Positions 10,880 through 61,915 of a stretch of DNA of 64,000 nt are shown piece after piece. The stretch is taken from contig NZ_JAQITD010000003.1 in the NCBI RefSeq assembly GCF_028618555.1, positions 62,001 to 126,000 of the forward strand, read 5' to 3'. Position 1 is the first letter of the stretch; each line of letters begins with the position of its first letter. The position numbers and the translations under genes were made by a program. Under the pieces are notes generated by a model that was not told where the DNA came from, made no database searches, and saw nothing but the letters and a program-made list of their open reading frames with translations. Origin of the DNA: Bartonella sp. CM31XJBT. GTDB taxonomy: Bacteria > Pseudomonadota > Alphaproteobacteria > Rhizobiales > Rhizobiaceae.

Positions 10880-11400
10880 TCATAGATAACAAACTGATTA
10901 ATCATCATAATCTAGCATTATTCATATTAAATTAGAATCTTGAATATGGTAAGATTACTCATTTCAAATTGCTCTCATGTTGAATTAATCAAATCACTTG
11001 CTTGTCAATCATAAGCGAGGCTGATCTGTGGGTAAAAACTGTACAAAAAGAGCAAGACACTGTCTCAAGCACCAAAGGATATACCAACATTGGAATCTGG
11101 CAAAATGTGTAAGGCAGCAGGCTTGCTTTTTCATGAAGCGTAAAGATCATAGTGCCGTTTATACACTACACCGAGACTTTACCATTTACCCTTCTATAAA
11201 ACCATTATAACATTCAAAAACGCCGTCATAAAATGGATGCCACAAATATTGAAAAATATTCCTTTTAAAAAACGCGTGACGGTACAACATAAGCATATTT
11301 TGTCTTGGGCGCTCTATTTTGTATGAGAAGCATTCCTCCTCATTAAAGAACGCGATAAAAAAAACATGAACTAAAACCATCATCTCCATTCTGTAAAAAG
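10880..11400 (+). repeat. Family A repeat with decayed integrase codons
   Basis: Forward copy. It has the upstream block ('gaatcttgaatatggtaag', 'tactcatttcaaattgctc', 'atcacttgcttg'), 'gtgggtaaaaactgtacaaa', then decayed integrase sequence: 'ggcttgctttttcatgaagc', 'cgccgtcataaaatggatgc' and 'ccttttaaaaaacgcgtga', corresponding to the residues read as GLLLHKRK, RRHEMG and SLKQAR in the best copy near 50900. The tail from about 11300 ('gcgctctattttgtatgag', 'cattaaagaacgcgata') recurs near 16170 and 33760. Confidence 0.6.
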
Positions 11401-11573
11401 CATGCCAAATACTTTTGAAAGCAGTAAAGCTAACGTAAAAAATAGCAATAAAAATGAACGTTAGCATTGCCCTTTCAATTTCATATTTTTCCCAAATGAG
11501 GTTTCTCATTTCAGAGATTACGAGATATACGCAATATTCTTACTCCAATCGGACACATAAAATCTAGAATGAT

Positions 11574-12420
11574 TCATAGAACTCTTAAAAGTCTCAATCT
11601 CTGTTTCAAACAAACCGCTAAAGATTGGATATTCTCAGCAGGAATTGTCCAGATATCATCTTCAATCTGATCTTCACGAATATGACGCAAAGGATTAGTA
11701 TGAACGCCTGTCAGGATAAGCAAACACAAAGCCAGTTGTGTTATGTTTTGTGTTTTACAGAGTAACTGATAAAAAACCGGCACATCTCTCCAATCCATGG
11801 CTGGTAAGCTTTGTTTTTTATGACGTTGTTTCCCTAAGAGCGCGCGTGCTTTTATCGTTGCTTGTAAATCAACATCCAAACCCTAATGCAACCGCATGTT
11901 TAAGACAAAGATTAAGACGCTTCAGTGCTGTCTGAGCTGTTCCAGCTTTTGCATGCCAAATGGGAGAAAGCGTATTGCGTATCTCAGTTTGCGTAATCTC
12001 TGAAACGGGCAGACAGCCTAATTTAGGGAGAATATAAAGGCGTAAGTGTAAAAACCAATCACAAGCTTTACCATCTCTTTTTAATTCAGCTTTACGGCTT
12101 TCAAAAGCATCCAACACGATATCTTTTAAATAATAGAGATTGCGCATTGCCTCACGCTTTTGTTTCTCACGTTCTTTAATGGGATCACGCCCCTCACGTA
12201 AAACAGCCCGCCACCCAGTTGCCAATTACGGGCTTGTTTTAAAGAAACATCTCTCAAGGCACCCAAGCCCATTTCGCAGCCCCCGGAAAGGTATAACAGT
12301 AAATCCATTGACCACCCCCATCTCTTACGTTTGTGAAGAAGCAAGCCGGCACCATCGTTATATTTGTCAGCTCGTGGGTGTTGTGCTACAGCCCTTGGCT
12401 CTTAAGACAATTCATAAGAG
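11574..12420 (-). pseudogene. Broken phage/P4-type tyrosine integrase
   Basis: The most complete integrase relic in the window, in three frames. The N-terminal arm-binding part (12344-12126) reads 'EMGLGALRDVSLKQAR'. The core-binding domain (about 12225-11869) contains 'GRDPIKEREKQKREAMRNL' and 'ILPKLGCLPVSEITQTEIR'. The start of the catalytic domain (11879-11574) contains 'LLILTGVHTNPLRHIREDQ', where the first catalytic Arg of the family would lie (here the usual TG-x-R position reads TGVHTNPLR). Frameshifts separate the parts, and the second half of the catalytic domain, with the HxxR and Tyr motifs, is missing. The rest to about 12420 is the upstream part of the family A repeat. Confidence 0.85.
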
Positions 12421-12610
12421 TCCTTTCTTATACAAATTTTATCCACACACTCATCCCGCTTGTGACGTGCAAGCGAGTGGTTTTGATTGATTCTAGATAG
12501 AGAGATTTGAAATGAGTGAATCTTACGTTATTCGGGGTTCTAATTCAATATGAAAACAGTGAATTATATATATAAATCAATATATTGTCTAGTGATGAAC
12601 AGATAACAAA
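12421..12610 (-). repeat. Family A repeat, upstream block of the broken integrase
   Basis: Continues the integrase relic on its 5' side: 'cacacactcatcccgcttg', 'gtgacgtgcaagcgagtgg', 'ttttgattgattctagat', 'gatttgaaatgagtgaatc' and 'ataaatcaatatattgtc'. This is a good reference copy for the upstream half of the family. Bases 12610-12880 hold nothing I recognise. Confidence 0.65.
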
Positions 12611-12889
12611 AAATCATAAACTTAGGTAAGCACCACCATAAAATCACTCATAAACCAGCTATGAACTGGAGAGTCGTACCGGCTTTGATAAAATACTTTG
12701 CTCATCCCCATACACAACACATTTGGTTTTAAGTTTACTTATTTTTACAAGCTGTTCGCAACAAATCCCTTATATTCACAAAAATAAGAAAAATATATGG
12801 ACAATTCTTAGTTCAAAAATATGAAAAGACAGCGTGATATTCATAGAAAAGTCTCATGTACCTTTATCAATCAAAAGCACTAAAGATCA

Positions 12890-13195
12890 TTGAATGTGTA
12901 CACCTTCTGTCTTGTAACGGTTGTCTCTTTTCTGCTCATAAGAAAGCACGCTGGCATCAGCATACACTTAATCCCAATGTTACAACAATTCTTACATTTG
13001 AAAGTATTCATTATAGACATTTTTTCCTTTTTATAGAGTTTTTACTCACATACCATCCCCACTTGTGACCGAAAAGCAAGTGATTGTCATTGATTCAACA
13101 TGAGAGAAATTTGAAATGAGAAAATCCTACGATAGACCTTCCATTCAAGGCGCAAAACAACAAATGATCTTTATAAATCAATGTGATGTCGATCT
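12890..13195 (-). repeat. Family A repeat, degenerate copy, reverse
   Basis: Reads in order 'ctgctcataagaaagcacg', 'tttttactcacataccatc', 'cccacttgtgaccgaaaag', 'gattgtcattgattcaaca', 'aaatttgaaatgagaaaatc' and 'tataaatcaatgtgatgtc'. It matches the 12421-12610 block with an inserted and decayed N-terminal part. Confidence 0.55.
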
Positions 13196-13217
13196 CTATT
13201 TTTTTAAGGAGAATCAC

Positions 13218-13460
13218 ATGTCACAATATAAGCCTATAGACAACCATTGCCTTAAATATTCTCATAAAAAACACCGATATGCTTAAAGCCTTACATAGAT
13301 CAACTGCCTTAAACGATGATATTTTACGGTCTAATAGGATTCTCTCTATAATCAATAAAGATTAAGTGCGATACAAAATGATTCTATTACTGAGCTAACT
13401 TATATCAATACCCAAGCTCTTAACGAAGTCATCATAAAAGACACTGATACAAGTAGCCCT
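13218..13460 (+). pseudogene. Relic of a small gene of unknown function
   Basis: An ATG with a good site ('aaggag', 8 nt upstream) opens 22 codons beginning MSQYKPIDNH. The same reading then continues after a frameshift as 'NTDMLKALHRSTALNDDILR' and ends at a stop near 13365. A later piece 'NTQALNEVIIKDTDTSSPL' in another frame may belong to it. I do not recognise the family. It sits directly behind a family A repeat, as cargo of a decayed element might. Confidence 0.35.
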
Positions 13461-13600
13461 TTATAGCCTCTCAAGAAAACAAGAAAATCATCTCCCACAA
13501 TAGAATCATTTCTCTACGGCAAAACTTTATCCCACATATGTTCCCAAGAAAAAGCGAAAAACGCATCTTACCCAATGCATTCACTAATGAATCAAGAGAA

Positions 13601-14476
13601 ACTTACCACTGAAAGAGATAAAACGCTAAAGTTTTAACCACTAAAACGGAACGCCCACGATACATTCCCTGTTCCACATCGATAGAAGACGATGCAAGGG
13701 AACCTCAACACTCATCTTAAAGCGAAAATGCATGCCCCAAGCGTGCATTGATCGATGCAATAAAAGAAGTTCACCACTGGAAAAGAAAGAAAACGCTAAA
13801 GTTTTAACCACTAAAACAGAACGCTCACGATACATTCCCTGTTCCACATCGATAGAAGACGATACAAGGGAACCTCAACATTCACCTTAAAGCGAAAATG
13901 CACGCCCCAAACATGCATTGATCGATGAAATAAAAGAAGTTCACCACTGTAAAAGAAAGAAAACGCTAAAGTTTTAACCACTAAAACGGAACGTCCACGA
14001 TACATCCCCTGTTCCACATCGATAGAAGACGATGCAAGAGAACCTCAACATTCACCTTAAAGCGAAAATGCACGCCCCAAGCGTGCATTGATCGATGAAA
14101 TAAAAGAAGTTCACCACTGGAAAAGAAAGAAAACGCTAAAGTTTTAACCACTAAAACAGAACGTCCACGATACATCCCCTGTTCCACATCGATAGAAGAC
14201 GATGCAAGAGAACCTCAACATTCACCTTAAAGCGAAAATGCACGCCCCAAGCGTGCATTGATCGATGAAATAAAAGAAGTTCACCACTGGAAAAGAAAGA
14301 AAACGCTAAAGTTTTAACCACTAAAACAGAACGTCCACGATACATCCCCTGTTCCACATCGATAGAAGACGATGCAAGAGAACCTCAACATTCACCTTAA
14401 AGCGAAAATGCACGCCCCAAGCGTGCATTGATCGATGAAATAAAAGAAGTTCACCACTGGAAAAGAAAGAAAACGC
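13601..14476 (-). repeat. Five 170-bp tandem repeats of the rpmF 3' end plus terminator
   Basis: Exact period of 170 bp: 'tcaccactg' recurs at 13771, 13941, 14111, 14281 and 14451. Each unit holds a copy of the last 15 or so codons of rpmF (the residues [12 protein letters not shown] are still readable) and a downstream stretch with the perfect hairpin 'aatgcacgc'/'gcgtgcatt'. Units 3 to 5 are nearly identical; the unit farthest from rpmF is the most diverged. The stop codon is lost in the copies, which produces overlapping 68-codon frames that I regard as artefacts. Confidence 0.92.
14407..14429 (-). terminator. rpmF terminator hairpin (repeated in each 170-bp unit)
   Basis: Perfect 9-bp inverted repeat 'aatgcacgc'/'gcgtgcatt' with a 5-base loop, followed on the minus strand by 'ttcgcttt'. 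It recurs every 170 bp at about 14237, 14067 and 13897; the 13727 copy has one mismatch. The T tract is weak, so termination strength is uncertain. Confidence 0.55.
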
Positions 14477-14656
14477 TCAGTCTTTAACCACTAAAACGGA
14501 ACGCCCACGATACATTCCCGTTTTCAAATCAATGTGATGAGGACGACGTAATTCACCAGAATTTTTATCTTCGATATAAGTCGGCGCCTTCAGAGCATCA
14601 GCCGAACGGCGCATGCCCCTCTTCGCTGGAGAGGTTTTTCGTTTAGGTACAGCCAT
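14477..14656 (-). CDS. rpmF: 50S ribosomal protein L32
   Basis: A 59-residue L32 protein of the large ribosomal subunit. It begins '[20 protein letters not shown]' as in other alphaproteobacteria and ends '[13 protein letters not shown]'. The start is the ATG at 14656, with GGAG 9 nt upstream; a more upstream ATG would add seven residues not found in the family. The 3' end has been copied five times downstream in tandem, and the upstream region is partly duplicated too (14690-14900). The gene itself is intact. Confidence 0.95.
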
Positions 14657-14689
14657 AAAAAGACACTCCAAATCCATTAAAACAGAAAA

Positions 14690-14900
14690 AGCAATGTCAA
14701 AAATGACAATGCTTCATTTAAAAACACCATAAAATTTTAAGATATTATACACTGATAAAAAAGAAGAGGCAATGTCAAAATGATCCTCCTCTTACTAAAA
14801 ATGACCTTCTTGTTATCAAAAATGGTGTCACAATAATCAAAGGAATATCAAAAACACTGCAAAATTTGAGAATTTTATACACCAATGAAAGCTTTTTTAT
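14690..14900. repeat. Duplicated rpmF upstream segment
   Basis: Two imperfect copies lie head to tail upstream of rpmF. 'aaaacaccataaaatttt' ... 'attatacactgataaaa' near 14720-14760 recurs as 'aaaacactgcaaaatttg' ... 'ttatacaccaatgaaa' near 14850-14890. 'gcaatgtcaaaaatgac' and 'gcaatgtcaaaatgatc' also repeat. The rest of the gap to ispA at 15082 shows no further feature except its ribosome site 'aaaggaagc'. Confidence 0.6.
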
Positions 14901-34175: not shown

Positions 34176-34457
34176 CTTTTGAAAATTCTAGAGCCGAATG
34201 AATAAGGATGACAACGATGAATGCTCATTTTGACCTTCACGCTCCAAAATGAGTCCGTGTTCTCGTCAAAGATAAATAAAATAGATATATGCAATATTCT
34301 CGCCCTAATCTAGCATACAAACGCAGGTACGACTCGTACAGCGCTGATACATCTTATGAACGCTGCTTCATAAGGCTTTAAGGTCAAATAACATCAAAAA
34401 CACGTCCCTCATTAAGCCCACATAGCGTCACTTTATATGGCACTATATTGCACTGAT

Positions 34458-34725
34458 TTAGAAAAAGCATAGATCAATATCAATTTGAACGCGAATAGAA
34501 TTGGGTATTTTGGGTGTACAGCTAAGCATTTTCAGCCCTTATAAAAAGAATCCGCCTATCAAAAAGATACTGTCCCTCATACAAAAAAGGAGTAAAAGCC
34601 GAAATGATAGTGCCCTCGAAGAAGAGAGGCGCTTCTGCTGGTTCTATAACAAAGATATTTTTTCCCGTAGCTCTACTTAATGCAATGGACATGTATCATA
34701 TTTTGCTGCTTGGATGCTTATTCTG
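34458..34725 (-). pseudogene. Decayed duplicate of the priA 3' end
   Basis: About 265 bp, same orientation, aligning with 34775-35040. Shared blocks include 'gatcaatatcaatttgaacg', 'gggtgtac.gctaagcat', 'ggcgcttctgctggt.c' and 'gatattttttcccgt.g'. It covers the last 75 or so codons and the stop region of priA, with small indels and no open frame. It lies immediately downstream of the true end, about 65 bp away. Confidence 0.85.
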
Positions 34726-34790
34726 AATAATATAAGAGTTCAAGTAAAGCATCTTAAGCAAAGAGACCTTCACTTTATGCGATACTGGTT

Positions 34791-36998
34791 TTAGAAAAAA
34801 CTTTGCGGATCAATATCAATTTGAACCCGAACGGAACTGGGCATTTTGGGTGTACCGCTAAGCATTGCACGTATAAACCCTTGTATATCAAAAGAACGCT
34901 GTCCTTGCAGCAAAAGCCGAAAACGATAACGCCCCCGAACCAAAGCCAAAGGCGCTTCTGCTGGTCCCATAACCGAGATATTTTTTTCCCGTGGCGCTGC
35001 CTGACGCAATGCGCGCGCATAATGTTCTGCTGCTTGGCGCTGTTGTGCAGAGATAATCAAAGAGGCAAGCCGCCCATAGGGGGGCAAATGATAATGCTGA
35101 CGCGCTGCAATCTCACGTGTGTAAAAATCTTCTGGCTGGCATGCAAGTAAGGCTTTGATAACCGGATGATCTGGTTGATAAGTTTGCAATAATCCTAAAC
35201 TTTTCAATCCCACACGCCCTGCTCTTCCGGTAACTTGAGAAAGCAGCTGATAGGTACGTTCACTTGCGCGTAAATCGCCATTGGCAAGACCAAGATCAGC
35301 ATCAATAACGCCAACCAGAGAGAGCTTGGGAAAATGATGTCCTTTAGCGACTAACTGTGTTCCAATAATAATGTCCACATCGCCATTTGCAATGGCTTGT
35401 AATTCGCTTCGCAACTTCCCAATCCCTCCTTTGAGATCTGTTGAAAGGATCAATGATCGCGCTTGAGGAAAAAGCATTTGTGTTTCTTCGGCAATTCTTT
35501 CCACACCCGGTCCACAAGCCACGAGATGATCTAATGTCCCACATTCAGGACAGGCTTGAGGAAGTGGTTCATGATATCCACAATGATGACATTTCAGTTG
35601 CCCTTGCGCACGATGTTCGACCAACCAACTTGAACAATCGGTACAATGAAAACGATGTCCGCAAATTCGGCATAAAGTTAAAGGTGCATAACCACGACGA
35701 TTAAGAAAAAGAAGAGCTTGTTCGCCCTTATCAAGCGTTTGTTTTAAAGCCCTTTCAAGAGCAAAGGAAATAAAGCGCCCCTTTTGCACCCCTCCTTGGC
35801 GCATATCAACCACCCGCAACTGTGGAAGTGCAGCTTCTTTAAAACGGGAAGGTAAATGCACCTTTTGATAACGCCCTTTTAAAACATTGGCTTGGCTTTC
35901 AATCGACGGTGTGGCTGAAGATAAAATAACAGGAAAATGCTCAAAAGAGCCCCGTGCAACAGCCATATCACGCGCATGATAAAAAATGCGCTCTTCTTGT
36001 TTATAAGCGCTATCGTGCTCTTCATCGACAACAATCAAGCCAAGCTCATGAAAGGGAAGAAAAAGCGCCGAACGAGCCCCCGCAACGACACGCACCCGCC
36101 CTTCTGCAACTTGTCGCCAGACGCGTTCTCTACGACGTGGCGTCAAATCAGAATGCCATTCTGCTGCCGCAGCGCCAAAACGTGCATAAAAACGATCTAA
36201 AAACTGCTGTGTTAAAGCAATTTCCGGCAATAAAATTAAAACCTGCTTGCCCTCTTTAAAGGCTTGAGAAACCGCTTCAAAATAAACCTCTGTCTTTCCT
36301 GAACCCGTAACACCATCAAGCAAAAAAACTTGAAACTGAGAAGATAAAACACCTTCCCGCAATAATGTTGCTGCTTCACTTTGCGCTCCCTGCAACTGAG
36401 GGGGACAAAAATCAGGATCAGGCATTGCCACAAGATCAGGAGCAGGAACCTTAACATCTTCAAAAATTCCTAGCGCTTTTAAACCTTCAACAACAGAAAC
36501 CGAAGTTCCAGCCGCATGTGCCAGACCAGAACGTGTCCATATCTTCTCATTACGCACCAATTCCAAAACCCGTGATCGCGCTGGTGTGAGACGTTCTACA
36601 TTTCCACCACAATATCGCAAACCCAGCATCTGCGCTTCCGGCTCTAAAGCAGCCGGTACCGACAAAACCAATCGTGCTACAAGACCAAAAGGTGCCATTG
36701 TATAGCGACTAACAAAACGCAAAAATGTGATCATTTCTGCTTTTAATGGGGGGCAATCAAAAACATGAAGCAGAAAGCGTAATTTTTCACGCGCCACCGA
36801 AGCAGACTTGTGCCCATCGGCTGTCTGCTCTCCAACATCTACAACAAAACCGCAAAGCTCACGCCCCATCAACGGAACCCGAACAAAGGAACCAACGTTC
36901 ACCTCCATAGAAGATGGAACTTTATAACTATAAGCGTGAGCAACAGGAAGAGGAACCAATACGGATACAATCTTTTCCTCTATCATGCTTGAATTCAT
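34791..36998 (-). CDS. priA: Primosomal protein N' (replication restart helicase)
   Basis: A PriA helicase of about 735 residues that reloads the replisome at stalled forks. Walker A 'GVTGSGKTE', the helicase box 'VVDEEHD', 'ILSSATPSIES' and the paired zinc-binding cysteines ('CRICGHRFHCTDCSSW', 'CHHCGYHEPLPQACPECG') are all present. The C-terminus 'VRVQIDIDPQSFF' is typical. The start could be ATG 36998 or 36986; neither has a strong ribosome site. A decayed second copy of its 3' end lies just downstream. Confidence 0.94.
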   Translation of the reverse strand: MNSSMIEEKIVSVLVPLPVAHAYSYKVPSSMEVNVGSFVRVPLMGRELCGFVVDVGEQTADGHKSASVAREKLRFLLHVFDCPPLKAEMITFLRFVSRYTMAPFGLVARLVLSVPAALEPEAQMLGLRYCGGNVERLTPARSRVLELVRNEKIWTRSGLAHAAGTSVSVVEGLKALGIFEDVKVPAPDLVAMPDPDFCPPQLQGAQSEAATLLREGVLSSQFQVFLLDGVTGSGKTEVYFEAVSQAFKEGKQVLILLPEIALTQQFLDRFYARFGAAAAEWHSDLTPRRRERVWRQVAEGRVRVVAGARSALFLPFHELGLIVVDEEHDSAYKQEERIFYHARDMAVARGSFEHFPVILSSATPSIESQANVLKGRYQKVHLPSRFKEAALPQLRVVDMRQGGVQKGRFISFALERALKQTLDKGEQALLFLNRRGYAPLTLCRICGHRFHCTDCSSWLVEHRAQGQLKCHHCGYHEPLPQACPECGTLDHLVACGPGVERIAEETQMLFPQARSLILSTDLKGGIGKLRSELQAIANGDVDIIIGTQLVAKGHHFPKLSLVGVIDADLGLANGDLRASERTYQLLSQVTGRAGRVGLKSLGLLQTYQPDHPVIKALLACQPEDFYTREIAARQHYHLPPYGRLASLIISAQQRQAAEHYARALRQAAPREKNISVMGPAEAPLALVRGRYRFRLLLQGQRSFDIQGFIRAMLSGTPKMPSSVRVQIDIDPQSFF

Positions 36999-58370: not shown

Positions 58371-58489
58371 AAAAAATGCTCCCAAGCAATACTTAATTAA
58401 CTTTATAATTCATAACTTAAGTGATCAACGACGAATAAATACCTATCTTTATAAGATAAAGATATTGTTTGAAAAAAATATCAAAAGAT

Positions 58490-58755
58490 TTTCAAGAGTA
58501 TTCTTCTTCGACAGTCTCCAAAACTTTTTGCTTACCCATATCATTTACTGGACTAATGATGCCTTCTTCTTCCATCCTTTCAATCAATGTTGTAGCACAG
58601 TTATAACCAATGCCTAAACGACATTGAATATAAGAAGTCGAAGCCTTACGATCACGAAGCACAATAACAACAGCTTGACAATAGGAATCATCTGCTAAAG
58701 AAACATCCCTCTTTATTTCTTGCGATCTCTTTCGGTATCGTTTCCAAATAACCAG
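58490..58755 (-). pseudogene. Decayed duplicate of the ftsK 3' end
   Basis: About 265 bp in the same orientation, aligning with 59474-59740. Long shared runs include 'ccttcttcttccatcct', 'ttataaccaatgcctaaacg' and 'cttacgatcacgaagcac'. It corresponds to the FtsK gamma domain (last 85 or so codons) with substitutions and indels that close the frame. It lies next to lolA, so it may be the original ftsK end left behind when something inserted. Confidence 0.9.
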
Positions 58756-58934
58756 TCTGCGTTTATGTTTCCGAAATCATCAAATTTTCCTGCTTTTCTG
58801 CTGATTTTCTAAACGCATAATATATTCTTTCCCACCCCTAATCTATGAAGCAACATAAATTATAGTCAATACATAATGGATTAAGGACTAAACATATTAC
58901 TCGCGAACCTGAAAGCTCTTTTAAGTGTCAAAAA

Positions 58935-59160
58935 TGCTTTTTTGACTTCCTTCCCACCCAAAAGAATAAAAATCTTCATCCGAACCACTCTGTAAACAGT
59001 TTGGAGTTTAGCAAATTTCACTTAGCTTCCCACCCCATATAATTCATTTATATTAAGACTCGACAGATCAGCCTTGCCCTAAATATTTAGAGCGCACTTA
59101 AAAAGACACTTAAATACCAAACCTTACATGCTTTTACCCCCCTCTACACTCGCAATGACA
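58935..59160 (+). repeat. Family B repeat
   Basis: 'cttcccacccaaaagaat', 'actctgtaaacagtttgg', 'taagactcgacagatcag', 'ctaaatatttagagcgcac', 'cacttaaataccaaacc'. It sits between the ftsK fragment and a family A copy, the A-next-to-B pairing also seen at 16.6-17.2 kb and 50.2-51.0 kb. Confidence 0.55.
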
Positions 59161-59164
59161 TTAT

Positions 59165-59430
59165 TTTATACCAAGATATTGATTTATAATAATTTATCTT
59201 TTTAACTTAAATCATAACGCCAAAGACAATAAGATTCTCTCATCACATACTCTCTCATATTGAATCAATTCAAATCATTTGCTTGCACGTTACAAGCAAG
59301 GTTGGTGTATGGATAAAAGTTATATAAGATAAAGAATCCCCTTATAAGGAGTCTCAAGTACCAAGGAGCTATCGCAAATTGAGAGCTGGTATATGAAAAT
59401 GCAGACTTTCTACGATACAATAGGATAAAC
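59165..59430 (+). repeat. Family A repeat, forward
   Basis: 'atattgatttataataat', 'taagattctctcatcacat', 'aatcatttgcttgcacgtt', 'acaagcaaggttggtgtatg', 'ccccttataaggagtctca' and 'aaggagctatcgcaaatt', following family order into the first integrase codons. It ends 40 bp from the ftsK stop. Confidence 0.6.
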
Positions 59431-59473
59431 ACTTGTTTTACAAGGTATTATAAAAAACAACTATAAATATTTT

Positions 59474-61915
59474 TCAAAAGCGTTCTTCTTCAGCCGGCAC
59501 TAAAATTTCTCGTTTCCCTGCGTGATTTGCTGGACTAATAATACCTTCTTCTTCCATCCTCTCAATCAATGTCGCAGCGCGGTTATAACCAATGCCTAAA
59601 CGGCGTTGAATATAAGAGGTTGAAGCCTTACGATCACGAAGCACAATAGCAACAGCTTGACTATAGGGATCATCTTCTGAAGGAGAAGACAAAGAAACAT
59701 CAGCACCATCCTCTTCAACTTCTTGCGTAATTGTTTCTAAATAATCAGGTCGTGCTTGCTCTTTGAGATGCGCAACAACCTGCTCCACTTCATCATCCGC
59801 AACAAAAGGCCCATGCACACGCTGAATACGTCCTCCTCCCATCATAAAGAGCATATCTCCTTGTCCCAATAATTGCTCGGCCCCCTGTTCGCCTAAAATT
59901 GTTCGGCTATCAATTTTTGAACTCACAGAAAAAGAAATACGTGTAGGAAAATTGGCTTTGATCGTCCCAGTAATAACATCGACGGAAGGACGCTGTGTCG
60001 CCATAATTACATGGATACCGGCAGCACGTGCCATTTGTGCTAAACGTTGAACCGCTCCTTCAATATCTTTCCCAGCAACCATCATCAAATCAGCCATTTC
60101 ATCAATAATGACAACAATATAGGGCATAGGACTAAAATCAAGTGTTTCCGTTTCATAAAGAGGCTCACCGGTCTCGCGATCAAATCCAACTTGAATTGTC
60201 CGCACCATTGTCTCTCCCTGACTTGCAGCTTCCCTAAGACGTGCATTAAACCCATCAATATTACGAACGCCTAGTTTTGACATTTTACTATAGCGCTCTT
60301 CCATTTCACGAACAGCCCACTTTAAAGCAATCACGGCTTTTTTAGGATCTGTCACCACGGGTGTTAATAAATGGGGAATGCCATCATAAACCGAAAGCTC
60401 AAGCATTTTCGGGTCCACCATAATGAGACGACATTGTTCAGGTGTCATACGATAAAGCAATGATAAAATCATTGTATTGATAGCAACAGACTTTCCCGAT
60501 CCTGTTGTACCAGCAACCAAAAGATGGGGCATTTTTGCTAAATCTGCAATAACAGCTTCTCCCCCGATTGTCTTACCCAAAGCAAGTCCTAGCTTTGCTT
60601 TGCTGTCAATAAATTCTTGCGCCTGCAACATTTCTCGTAAATAAACCATCTCACGCTTTGCATTAGGCAATTCTATTCCAATCACATTGCGTCCTGGAAC
60701 CACCGCAACACGCGCCGAAATCGCACGCATTGAGCGTGCAATATCATCTGCCAAACCAATGATACGGGAGGACTTAATGCCAGCAGCCGGTTCAAATTCA
60801 TACAAAGTTACCACCGGTCCAGGACAAGCATCAATAATTTGCCCCTTGACCCCAAAATCTAACAAAACCCCTTCAAGTTCCTGAGAATTTGCTCTTAAAA
60901 CAGCAGGAGAAAGTTTTGCATCCCTAACAGACGGCGGTGGAACCGAAAGATAATCTACAAGAGGAAGAACAAAACCACCATTTAAAGAAGCTGTTAAAGA
61001 CTTTCGATTTTTAGCAGGAGAAACATAGGCTTTATTTTGATTTTCCTCACACTTTACTTTTTCACCCAAAAAAGTTGGCTCAATCCGATCAAATGACTTT
61101 CCTTGCCCTTTACTTTGAAAACGCCTTTTGAAACAGAACAAACGAAAAAAACGCGCTTGTAAAAAATAAAAAAGATGTAAAAAAGCGCCGCAAGTTGTCG
61201 CAAAAAAACCATGATTTTCACGTTCATCCTCTGCGGCATATTCCGTATCTTCTTCCAACTCAAAAACTGGATTAACGATTTCGTCTTTTGGAATACTTTT
61301 TTCTTTTCTTTTCTTTGTTCGACGCCGCCATATCACATTGCCAGCAAAAGCAGCAGTAAAAAACCCTAAAAGAATAAAAACAACACTGAAAAACACCGTG
61401 TAAGGAGGAGAAAGAAAAAGAGGAAAGACTGAAGAAGCGACACTTAAAACTTTATCTCCTAAAACCCCTCCCAATCCCATTGGCAATGGCCAATAAGTAA
61501 AAGAAGCAACAGGTGACATAAGAGCAAAAGCAATTAAAAAACAAATCGTTGATAGCACCCATAAAAAAAAGCGAAAAGTCAAATTGTAGATATTCTTTTG
61601 CGCCAACAAGAGAAAAGACCAAAATAACGGCGGCAACAAAACAGCAAGACTTGCCAAGCCAAAAAACTGCATAATAAAATCTGAAAAAATTGCCCCCATC
61701 CACCCCATAAGGTTTGTAACCTCATTTGTACTTGCATGGGTTAAAGATGGGTCCGCAACATTCCACGTCGCCAAAGCAAACACACAAAAAATAATAAAGC
61801 CCAAAAGCCCAAGCCCAATAAATACCCCTATCTGACGTAAAAACATCTCAATAAGACGCGAACCTTGAGAATTTCGCACTTCTAATGAATCATACGGAGA
61901 AGAACTTCGGTGCAT
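59474..61915 (-). CDS. ftsK: DNA translocase FtsK
   Basis: An 813-residue septal DNA pump. There are four or five N-terminal membrane helices (within residues about 25-185), a short charged linker, then the RecA-like motor with Walker A 'GTTGSGKS' near 470 and 'IVVIIDEMADLMMVAGKDIE' as Walker B. The C-terminal gamma winged helix ('YIQRRLGIGYNRAATLIERM') reads KOPS. The linker is short, as in other alphaproteobacteria. Its 3' end exists again as a decayed fragment 0.7 kb downstream. Confidence 0.96.
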   Translation of the reverse strand: MHRSSSPYDSLEVRNSQGSRLIEMFLRQIGVFIGLGLLGFIIFCVFALATWNVADPSLTHASTNEVTNLMGWMGAIFSDFIMQFFGLASLAVLLPPLFWSFLLLAQKNIYNLTFRFFLWVLSTICFLIAFALMSPVASFTYWPLPMGLGGVLGDKVLSVASSVFPLFLSPPYTVFFSVVFILLGFFTAAFAGNVIWRRRTKKRKEKSIPKDEIVNPVFELEEDTEYAAEDERENHGFFATTCGAFLHLFYFLQARFFRLFCFKRRFQSKGQGKSFDRIEPTFLGEKVKCEENQNKAYVSPAKNRKSLTASLNGGFVLPLVDYLSVPPPSVRDAKLSPAVLRANSQELEGVLLDFGVKGQIIDACPGPVVTLYEFEPAAGIKSSRIIGLADDIARSMRAISARVAVVPGRNVIGIELPNAKREMVYLREMLQAQEFIDSKAKLGLALGKTIGGEAVIADLAKMPHLLVAGTTGSGKSVAINTMILSLLYRMTPEQCRLIMVDPKMLELSVYDGIPHLLTPVVTDPKKAVIALKWAVREMEERYSKMSKLGVRNIDGFNARLREAASQGETMVRTIQVGFDRETGEPLYETETLDFSPMPYIVVIIDEMADLMMVAGKDIEGAVQRLAQMARAAGIHVIMATQRPSVDVITGTIKANFPTRISFSVSSKIDSRTILGEQGAEQLLGQGDMLFMMGGGRIQRVHGPFVADDEVEQVVAHLKEQARPDYLETITQEVEEDGADVSLSSPSEDDPYSQAVAIVLRDRKASTSYIQRRLGIGYNRAATLIERMEEEGIISPANHAGKREILVPAEEERF

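Follow-up and report, generated by a model that had tools for sequence, protein, structure and literature searches.

Probable tandem duplication and decay of the rpmF 3′ end, with pseudogene units of changing number and sequence, in a Bartonella clade

Introduction

Tandem repeats that differ in unit number are known in Bartonella; B. henselae has five MLVA loci, BHV-A to BHV-E, according to the available passages of PMC2687025. The array that we describe here, which lies behind the gene for ribosomal protein L32 (rpmF), is like these loci, as those passages present them, in being a head-to-tail repeat whose unit number differs. It departs from them in that its variation is recorded between species only, and in that its unit joins the end of a gene to the flanking DNA. 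A second relevant system is the concerted evolution of prokaryotic paralogs, in which paralogs within a species are closer to each other than to orthologs (PMC6053082). The rpmF array shares this feature; the paralogs in the available part of that paper are whole protein genes, whereas the array consists of pseudogene fragments together with the tail of their parent gene. We found nothing on the rpmF array in the Bartonella literature on rpmF, on repeats and on partial gene duplication, as covered by open-licence papers searched partly by title. Nor does rpmF appear among the genes named in the available passages of PMC3610622 on tandem and duplicated genes.

We analyzed a 64,000-nucleotide stretch (the window) of the genome of Bartonella sp. 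CM31XJBT (G000 in our comparison), together with the rpmF locus of other Bartonella species. Our analysis makes it likely that the 3′ end of rpmF and its native flank were duplicated in tandem and have since decayed, and that unequal exchange and gene conversion maintain them as pseudogene units that change in number and sequence.

Results

The intact parent gene, rpmF, occupies 14477..14656 on the minus strand and encodes 59 amino acids followed by a stop codon (Pfam Ribosomal_L32p, E 4.1e-22); it was found in all 71 Bartonella genomes. Directly behind it, in exact register and on the same strand, five 170-bp units follow head-to-tail (13627-14476), and TRF reported a single array at 13605-14519 with a period of 170, 5.4 copies and 95% matches. 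As head-to-tail copies of one unit, they form a minisatellite, or tandem repeat array. The count of five is the assembled number and is unproven, since units 1 and 2 are identical and the draft assembly comprises 85 contigs. We numbered the units from the gene and used unit 1 (14307..14476) as the reference, which unit 2 (14137..14306) matches at 170 of 170 positions, unit 3 (13967..14136) at 169, and both unit 4 (13797..13966) and the distal unit 5 (13627..13796) at 162. A sequence-only reading had proposed five exact 170-bp units carrying the final rpmF codons, near-identical close to the gene and diverged at the far end; TRF and the register alignment bear out the former, and the matches to unit 1 the latter.

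In transcript order, each unit consists of the 3′ flank of rpmF, terminator-like hairpin included, and then of 51 bp that match rpmF positions 124-174, or codons 42-58 (17 codons, the final codon excluded). The identity of this match to the gene is 84, 84, 86, 86 and 90% from unit 1 to unit 5. A 20-base rpmF-tail pattern, with up to 3 mismatches allowed, matched six sites of the window, one in the gene and one in each of the five units, against 0.01 expected, a count that excludes chance. When the whole genome was searched with two of the units, all matches were confined to the rpmF locus.

The hairpins are perfect in unit 1 (14407..14429), unit 2 (14237..14259) and unit 3 (14067..14089), each with 10 pairs and -16.1 kcal/mol. 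That of unit 4 (13897..13919) contains G-U pairs and has -11.8 kcal/mol; that of unit 5 (13727..13749) has one mismatch, reached -10.3 kcal/mol by folding and was missed by the terminator scan. Thus, the perfect hairpin formerly ascribed to every unit is present in units 1-3 and has given way to imperfect forms in units 4 and 5, with stability dropping distally. All lie on the minus strand, as does a weaker hairpin past the array (13559..13582; -8.4 kcal/mol in the folded stretch 13555-13593), which is probably a remnant of the native flank of rpmF. The array hairpins combine a strong stem with a short, interrupted U run (TTTTCGCTTT). We assign the hairpin to the native flank because G050, a genome without rpmF copies, has a similar hairpin once behind rpmF.

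To survey the distribution of the copies, we searched the DNA downstream of rpmF for similarity to the gene in each of the 71 Bartonella genomes, one per species. Seventy were testable; G021 was left out, as its assembly breaks inside the locus and splits rpmF between contigs C11 and C12. Behind the gene, rpmF-tail copies are present in 20 of the 70, and 16 of these 20 belong to a single clade, which includes the window genome. Among the 18 unbroken members of this clade, 16 carry copies and two carry none: G019, which the tree draws as the earliest branch, and G050, placed beside G026, which has three. The species tree was built from ispA, carD, fdxA and a neighbouring gene, all from the rpmF locus, and bears no support values. 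The copy-bearing genomes outside the clade are G027 and the group G010/G037/G042, which, together with the clade, makes at least three origins of the copies. No rpmF-tail copies were found at 78 non-Bartonella loci, which, with two from Bartonella, made up the best 80 of 571 rpmF matches and were searched over at most 3 kb downstream of rpmF, less where the contig ended.

Within the clade the copy count ranges from 0 to 5, as counted with the 37-nt tail and up to 11 mismatches, a threshold under which a second copy in G068, a diverged one, goes uncounted. Near relatives differ: the window genome has 5 and G053 has 1, G026 has 3 and G050 has 0, and G055 has 3 where G017 and G025 have 1 each. 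TRF detected an array in 10 genomes, with periods of 166-198 bp. The units are of two types, one with a hairpin in every unit, as in the window genome, and the other consisting of near-whole rpmF copies with a hairpin after the last one only (G054, G066 and G067). The variation in unit number is recorded between species. The genome that we take to be that of B. henselae (G023) has no rpmF copies, so the rpmF array is unlikely to be among the BHV loci.

In three pairs of genomes outside the clade (G027/G022, G037/G015 and G010/G043), gene and copy alike are followed by native flank, which argues for tandem duplication in place and not for an inserted element. The copies are adjacent to the gene, lie on its strand and repeat the gene end with its native flank, and hence constitute a partial tandem gene duplication. 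Just past the tail, 35 of 37 clade copies have the derived junction TTTAG, a change that abolishes the stop codon at that site; the exceptions are G035 and copy 3 of G032, and none of the 19 genes compared has this junction. Because this junction is so widely shared, the clade copies probably descend from one ancestor.

We then compared units within and between species. The five units of the window genome form one group against the units of seven other species, with a support of 100/100, and the five units of G040 also group, at the weaker support of 52/88; units of one species thus group together, which is the pattern of concerted evolution. Unit 5 is the nearest of the five to the units of the sister species G040 and G053 (85-88% identity, against 80-86% for units 1-4). 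Given that units 1-3 are near-identical and that unit 5 is the closest to the sister-species units, the array probably grew on the gene side. In its last 37 nt, the tail of unit 5 is identical to rpmF, whereas those of units 1-3 depart from the gene by 2-3 letters, every one of them synonymous. Because the proximal tails differ and the distal one does not, growth proceeded unit from unit and not from the present end of rpmF. The sequence-only reading had also proposed expansion from the gene side, a proposal that agrees with the near-identity of units 1-3, with the correction that these were not copied afresh from today's rpmF.

The units also resemble their own gene. Their mean distance to it is 3.73 of 37 letters, as compared with 5.75 (sd 0.32) when genes were shuffled among 16 species, and none of 10000 shuffles was as low, a test that assumes a duplication older than the clade. 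In G040 and G068, the gene and its copies have in common letters that are absent from all other tabulated genes, and in G053 and G066 the 37-nt tails are identical in gene and copies. A pair of leucine codons two changes apart, TTA and CTC, occurs in differing combinations of gene and copy in G031, G032, G054, G066 and G068. For the copies of G031, G035 and G026, however, several other species' genes are nearer than their own, as holds for some copies of G017, G054 and G067, and for units 1-2 of the window genome one foreign-species gene is nearer than the resident rpmF. Exchange with rpmF therefore looks frequent but not general, as far as such sequence comparisons reveal it.

Between the window genome and G040 or G053, the unit-1 spacer is 20-23% different, the 100 bp adjoining the array 10-14%, and the flank 107-700 bp past the array 7-8%. 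The spacers of window positions 14307-14476 are thus about three times as diverged as this more distant flank. Between G040 and G053, the unit-1 spacers are 8% and the last-unit spacers 14% different. The nearest other units across the 71 genomes have just 77-78% identity by BLAST, and no close donor was seen among them. Import by recombination or fast turnover could be the source of this divergence.

Tandem partial copies are not rare in Bartonella. Within the rpmF neighbourhood, copies of the ispA 3′ end lie behind ispA in G001, G007, G008, G023, G039 and G051, and copies of the fdxA 3′ end behind fdxA in G051 and G052. In 400 kb sampled from the sister genome G040, direct repeats spaced within 1.5 kb formed 27 clusters. 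We considered whether tandem copies specially favour the 3′ ends of genes and rejected this: 3 of the G040 clusters involved a 3′ end, 5 a 5′ end, 3 both and 16 neither, in a classification based on roughly called ORFs of 100 aa or more, in which some clusters are repeats between whole members of a family and the rpmF array itself falls under 'other'. Similar numbers at 5′ and 3′ ends are what tandem duplication at random would give, provided that an intact gene is spared.

Among the G040 clusters, a 146-bp, 4.9-copy array (L248:16717-17420) derives from the 3′ end of a 778-aa phage gene, tape-measure-like as read from its sequence, and has the anatomy of the rpmF array. The units of a 136-bp, 3-copy array (L244:929-1332) each seem to hold a TTGACA/TATAAT-like promoter and lie upstream of a small reading frame, and a 123-bp, 7.7-copy array with 77% identity (L236:8615-9543) has repeat-rich surroundings. 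In the window itself, at 34457-35037 and at 58459-59682, the 3′ end of a long minus-strand frame is repeated behind it, with 72% and 81% identity, respectively. The ispA, fdxA and phage-gene duplications are like the rpmF case in that the 3′ end of a gene is repeated just behind it; the rpmF case differs in its occurrence in 16 of 18 clade members and in its units, which number up to five.

Discussion

We consider it likely that the array is a decayed partial duplication of rpmF, held as a pseudogene array of changing size. The 3′ end of rpmF would have been duplicated in tandem along with the native downstream flank that holds the gene's own terminator-like hairpin, probably in a single event in the ancestor of one Bartonella clade, as the shared junction suggests. 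Unit number may later have been altered by unequal homologous exchange or replication slippage. The likeness of units within a species is the pattern that unequal exchange and gene conversion would maintain, and in some species the living rpmF tail appears to have been drawn into the exchange. Selection would hold the intact rpmF and probably some downstream terminator, and the extra units may be tolerated pseudogene DNA. Several observations count against this account. The copies persist in 16 of 18 clade members, which might hint at a use, and plain neutral decay fails to explain the fast divergence of the spacers. The mainly synonymous tail changes of the window genome would be compatible with selection on the tail as well, and the copies that lie closer to the genes of other species show that exchange with rpmF is not general.

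A rival account makes the array a selected terminator battery, which would ensure that rpmF transcription stops ahead of the carD region. The two genes are indeed convergent at the locus, 4 of 8 terminator-like matches in 13300-14900 are array hairpins (1.8 matches being expected by chance), and the hairpin is maintained with G-U changes in many clade copies. Yet the conserved hairpin is missing directly behind rpmF in 5 of 18 clade genomes (G020, G031, G054, G066 and G067), where at least one copy precedes it, and directly behind the gene the hairpins of G019 and G035 are all weak and altered, so such a battery is not a conserved trait of the clade. G050 manages with one hairpin and zero copies, and in the window array the hairpins weaken with distance and their U run is short and broken. 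Downstream of the array on the same strand, moreover, lies an integrase remnant. The role for stacked terminators that the sequence-only reading had put forward is thus not supported, and we regard a selected battery as improbable. It also seems unlikely to us that rpmF and its pseudogene array have co-evolved clade-wide by recurrent gene conversion, with 3′-end variants, such as the TTA/CTC leucine codons, stored in the array and returned to the gene.

A functional RNA or peptide element, such as a 3′-derived small RNA or a translated repeat of the L32 tail, is very unlikely. Four 68-codon reading frames include the L32 tail, most tails are still readable as an L32 end in the window genome, G040, G053, G055 and G066, and the tail changes of the window genome are mainly synonymous (9 synonymous codons and 1 non-synonymous codon over five units, three of which are near-copies of each other), a bias that would also fit selection on the tail. 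A coding role was rejected in view of the stops and amino-acid changes in the copies of other species, and a functional RNA in view of the sole Rfam match, to U6atac, which at E 0.64 is under the gathering score. The promoter scan of the locus gave no promoter-like site within the array, and G050 does without copies altogether. No finding on the array calls for a function. Least probable of all is an origin in which integrases use the 3′ end of rpmF as an attachment site and elements have left displaced gene ends behind as the copies. Every copy includes the 3′ end of the gene, and an integrase remnant (11629-12588; Phage_int_M at 11869-12225, E 2.7e-9) lies 1.4 kb past the array, with remnants also found between rpmF and carD in G019, G053, G054, G066, G067 and G068. 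This remnant belongs to a family dispersed over the genome, however: the stretch 11400-13604 has 68 matches across the window genome, most of the strong ones to the integrase-remnant part. G019 has a remnant and no copy, a unit of 166-198 bp cannot accommodate an element, and what comes after the gene, and again after its copy, in the three outside pairs is native flank and not foreign DNA. An attachment-site origin is thus strongly disfavoured.

The decayed duplication that we favour is ordinary in its mechanism; its interest lies in its persistence across a clade and in the exchange with an essential gene. In practice, short-read assemblies can break or collapse at the rpmF array, which is a candidate typing marker in the clade if strains differ. 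Where rpmF is used as a core gene in trees, its 3′ codons in this clade may be products of conversion. The array offers a replicated case, at one site in many species, of partial tandem duplications that persist and change in number, and a bacterial example of partial duplications that exchange sequence with an essential gene.
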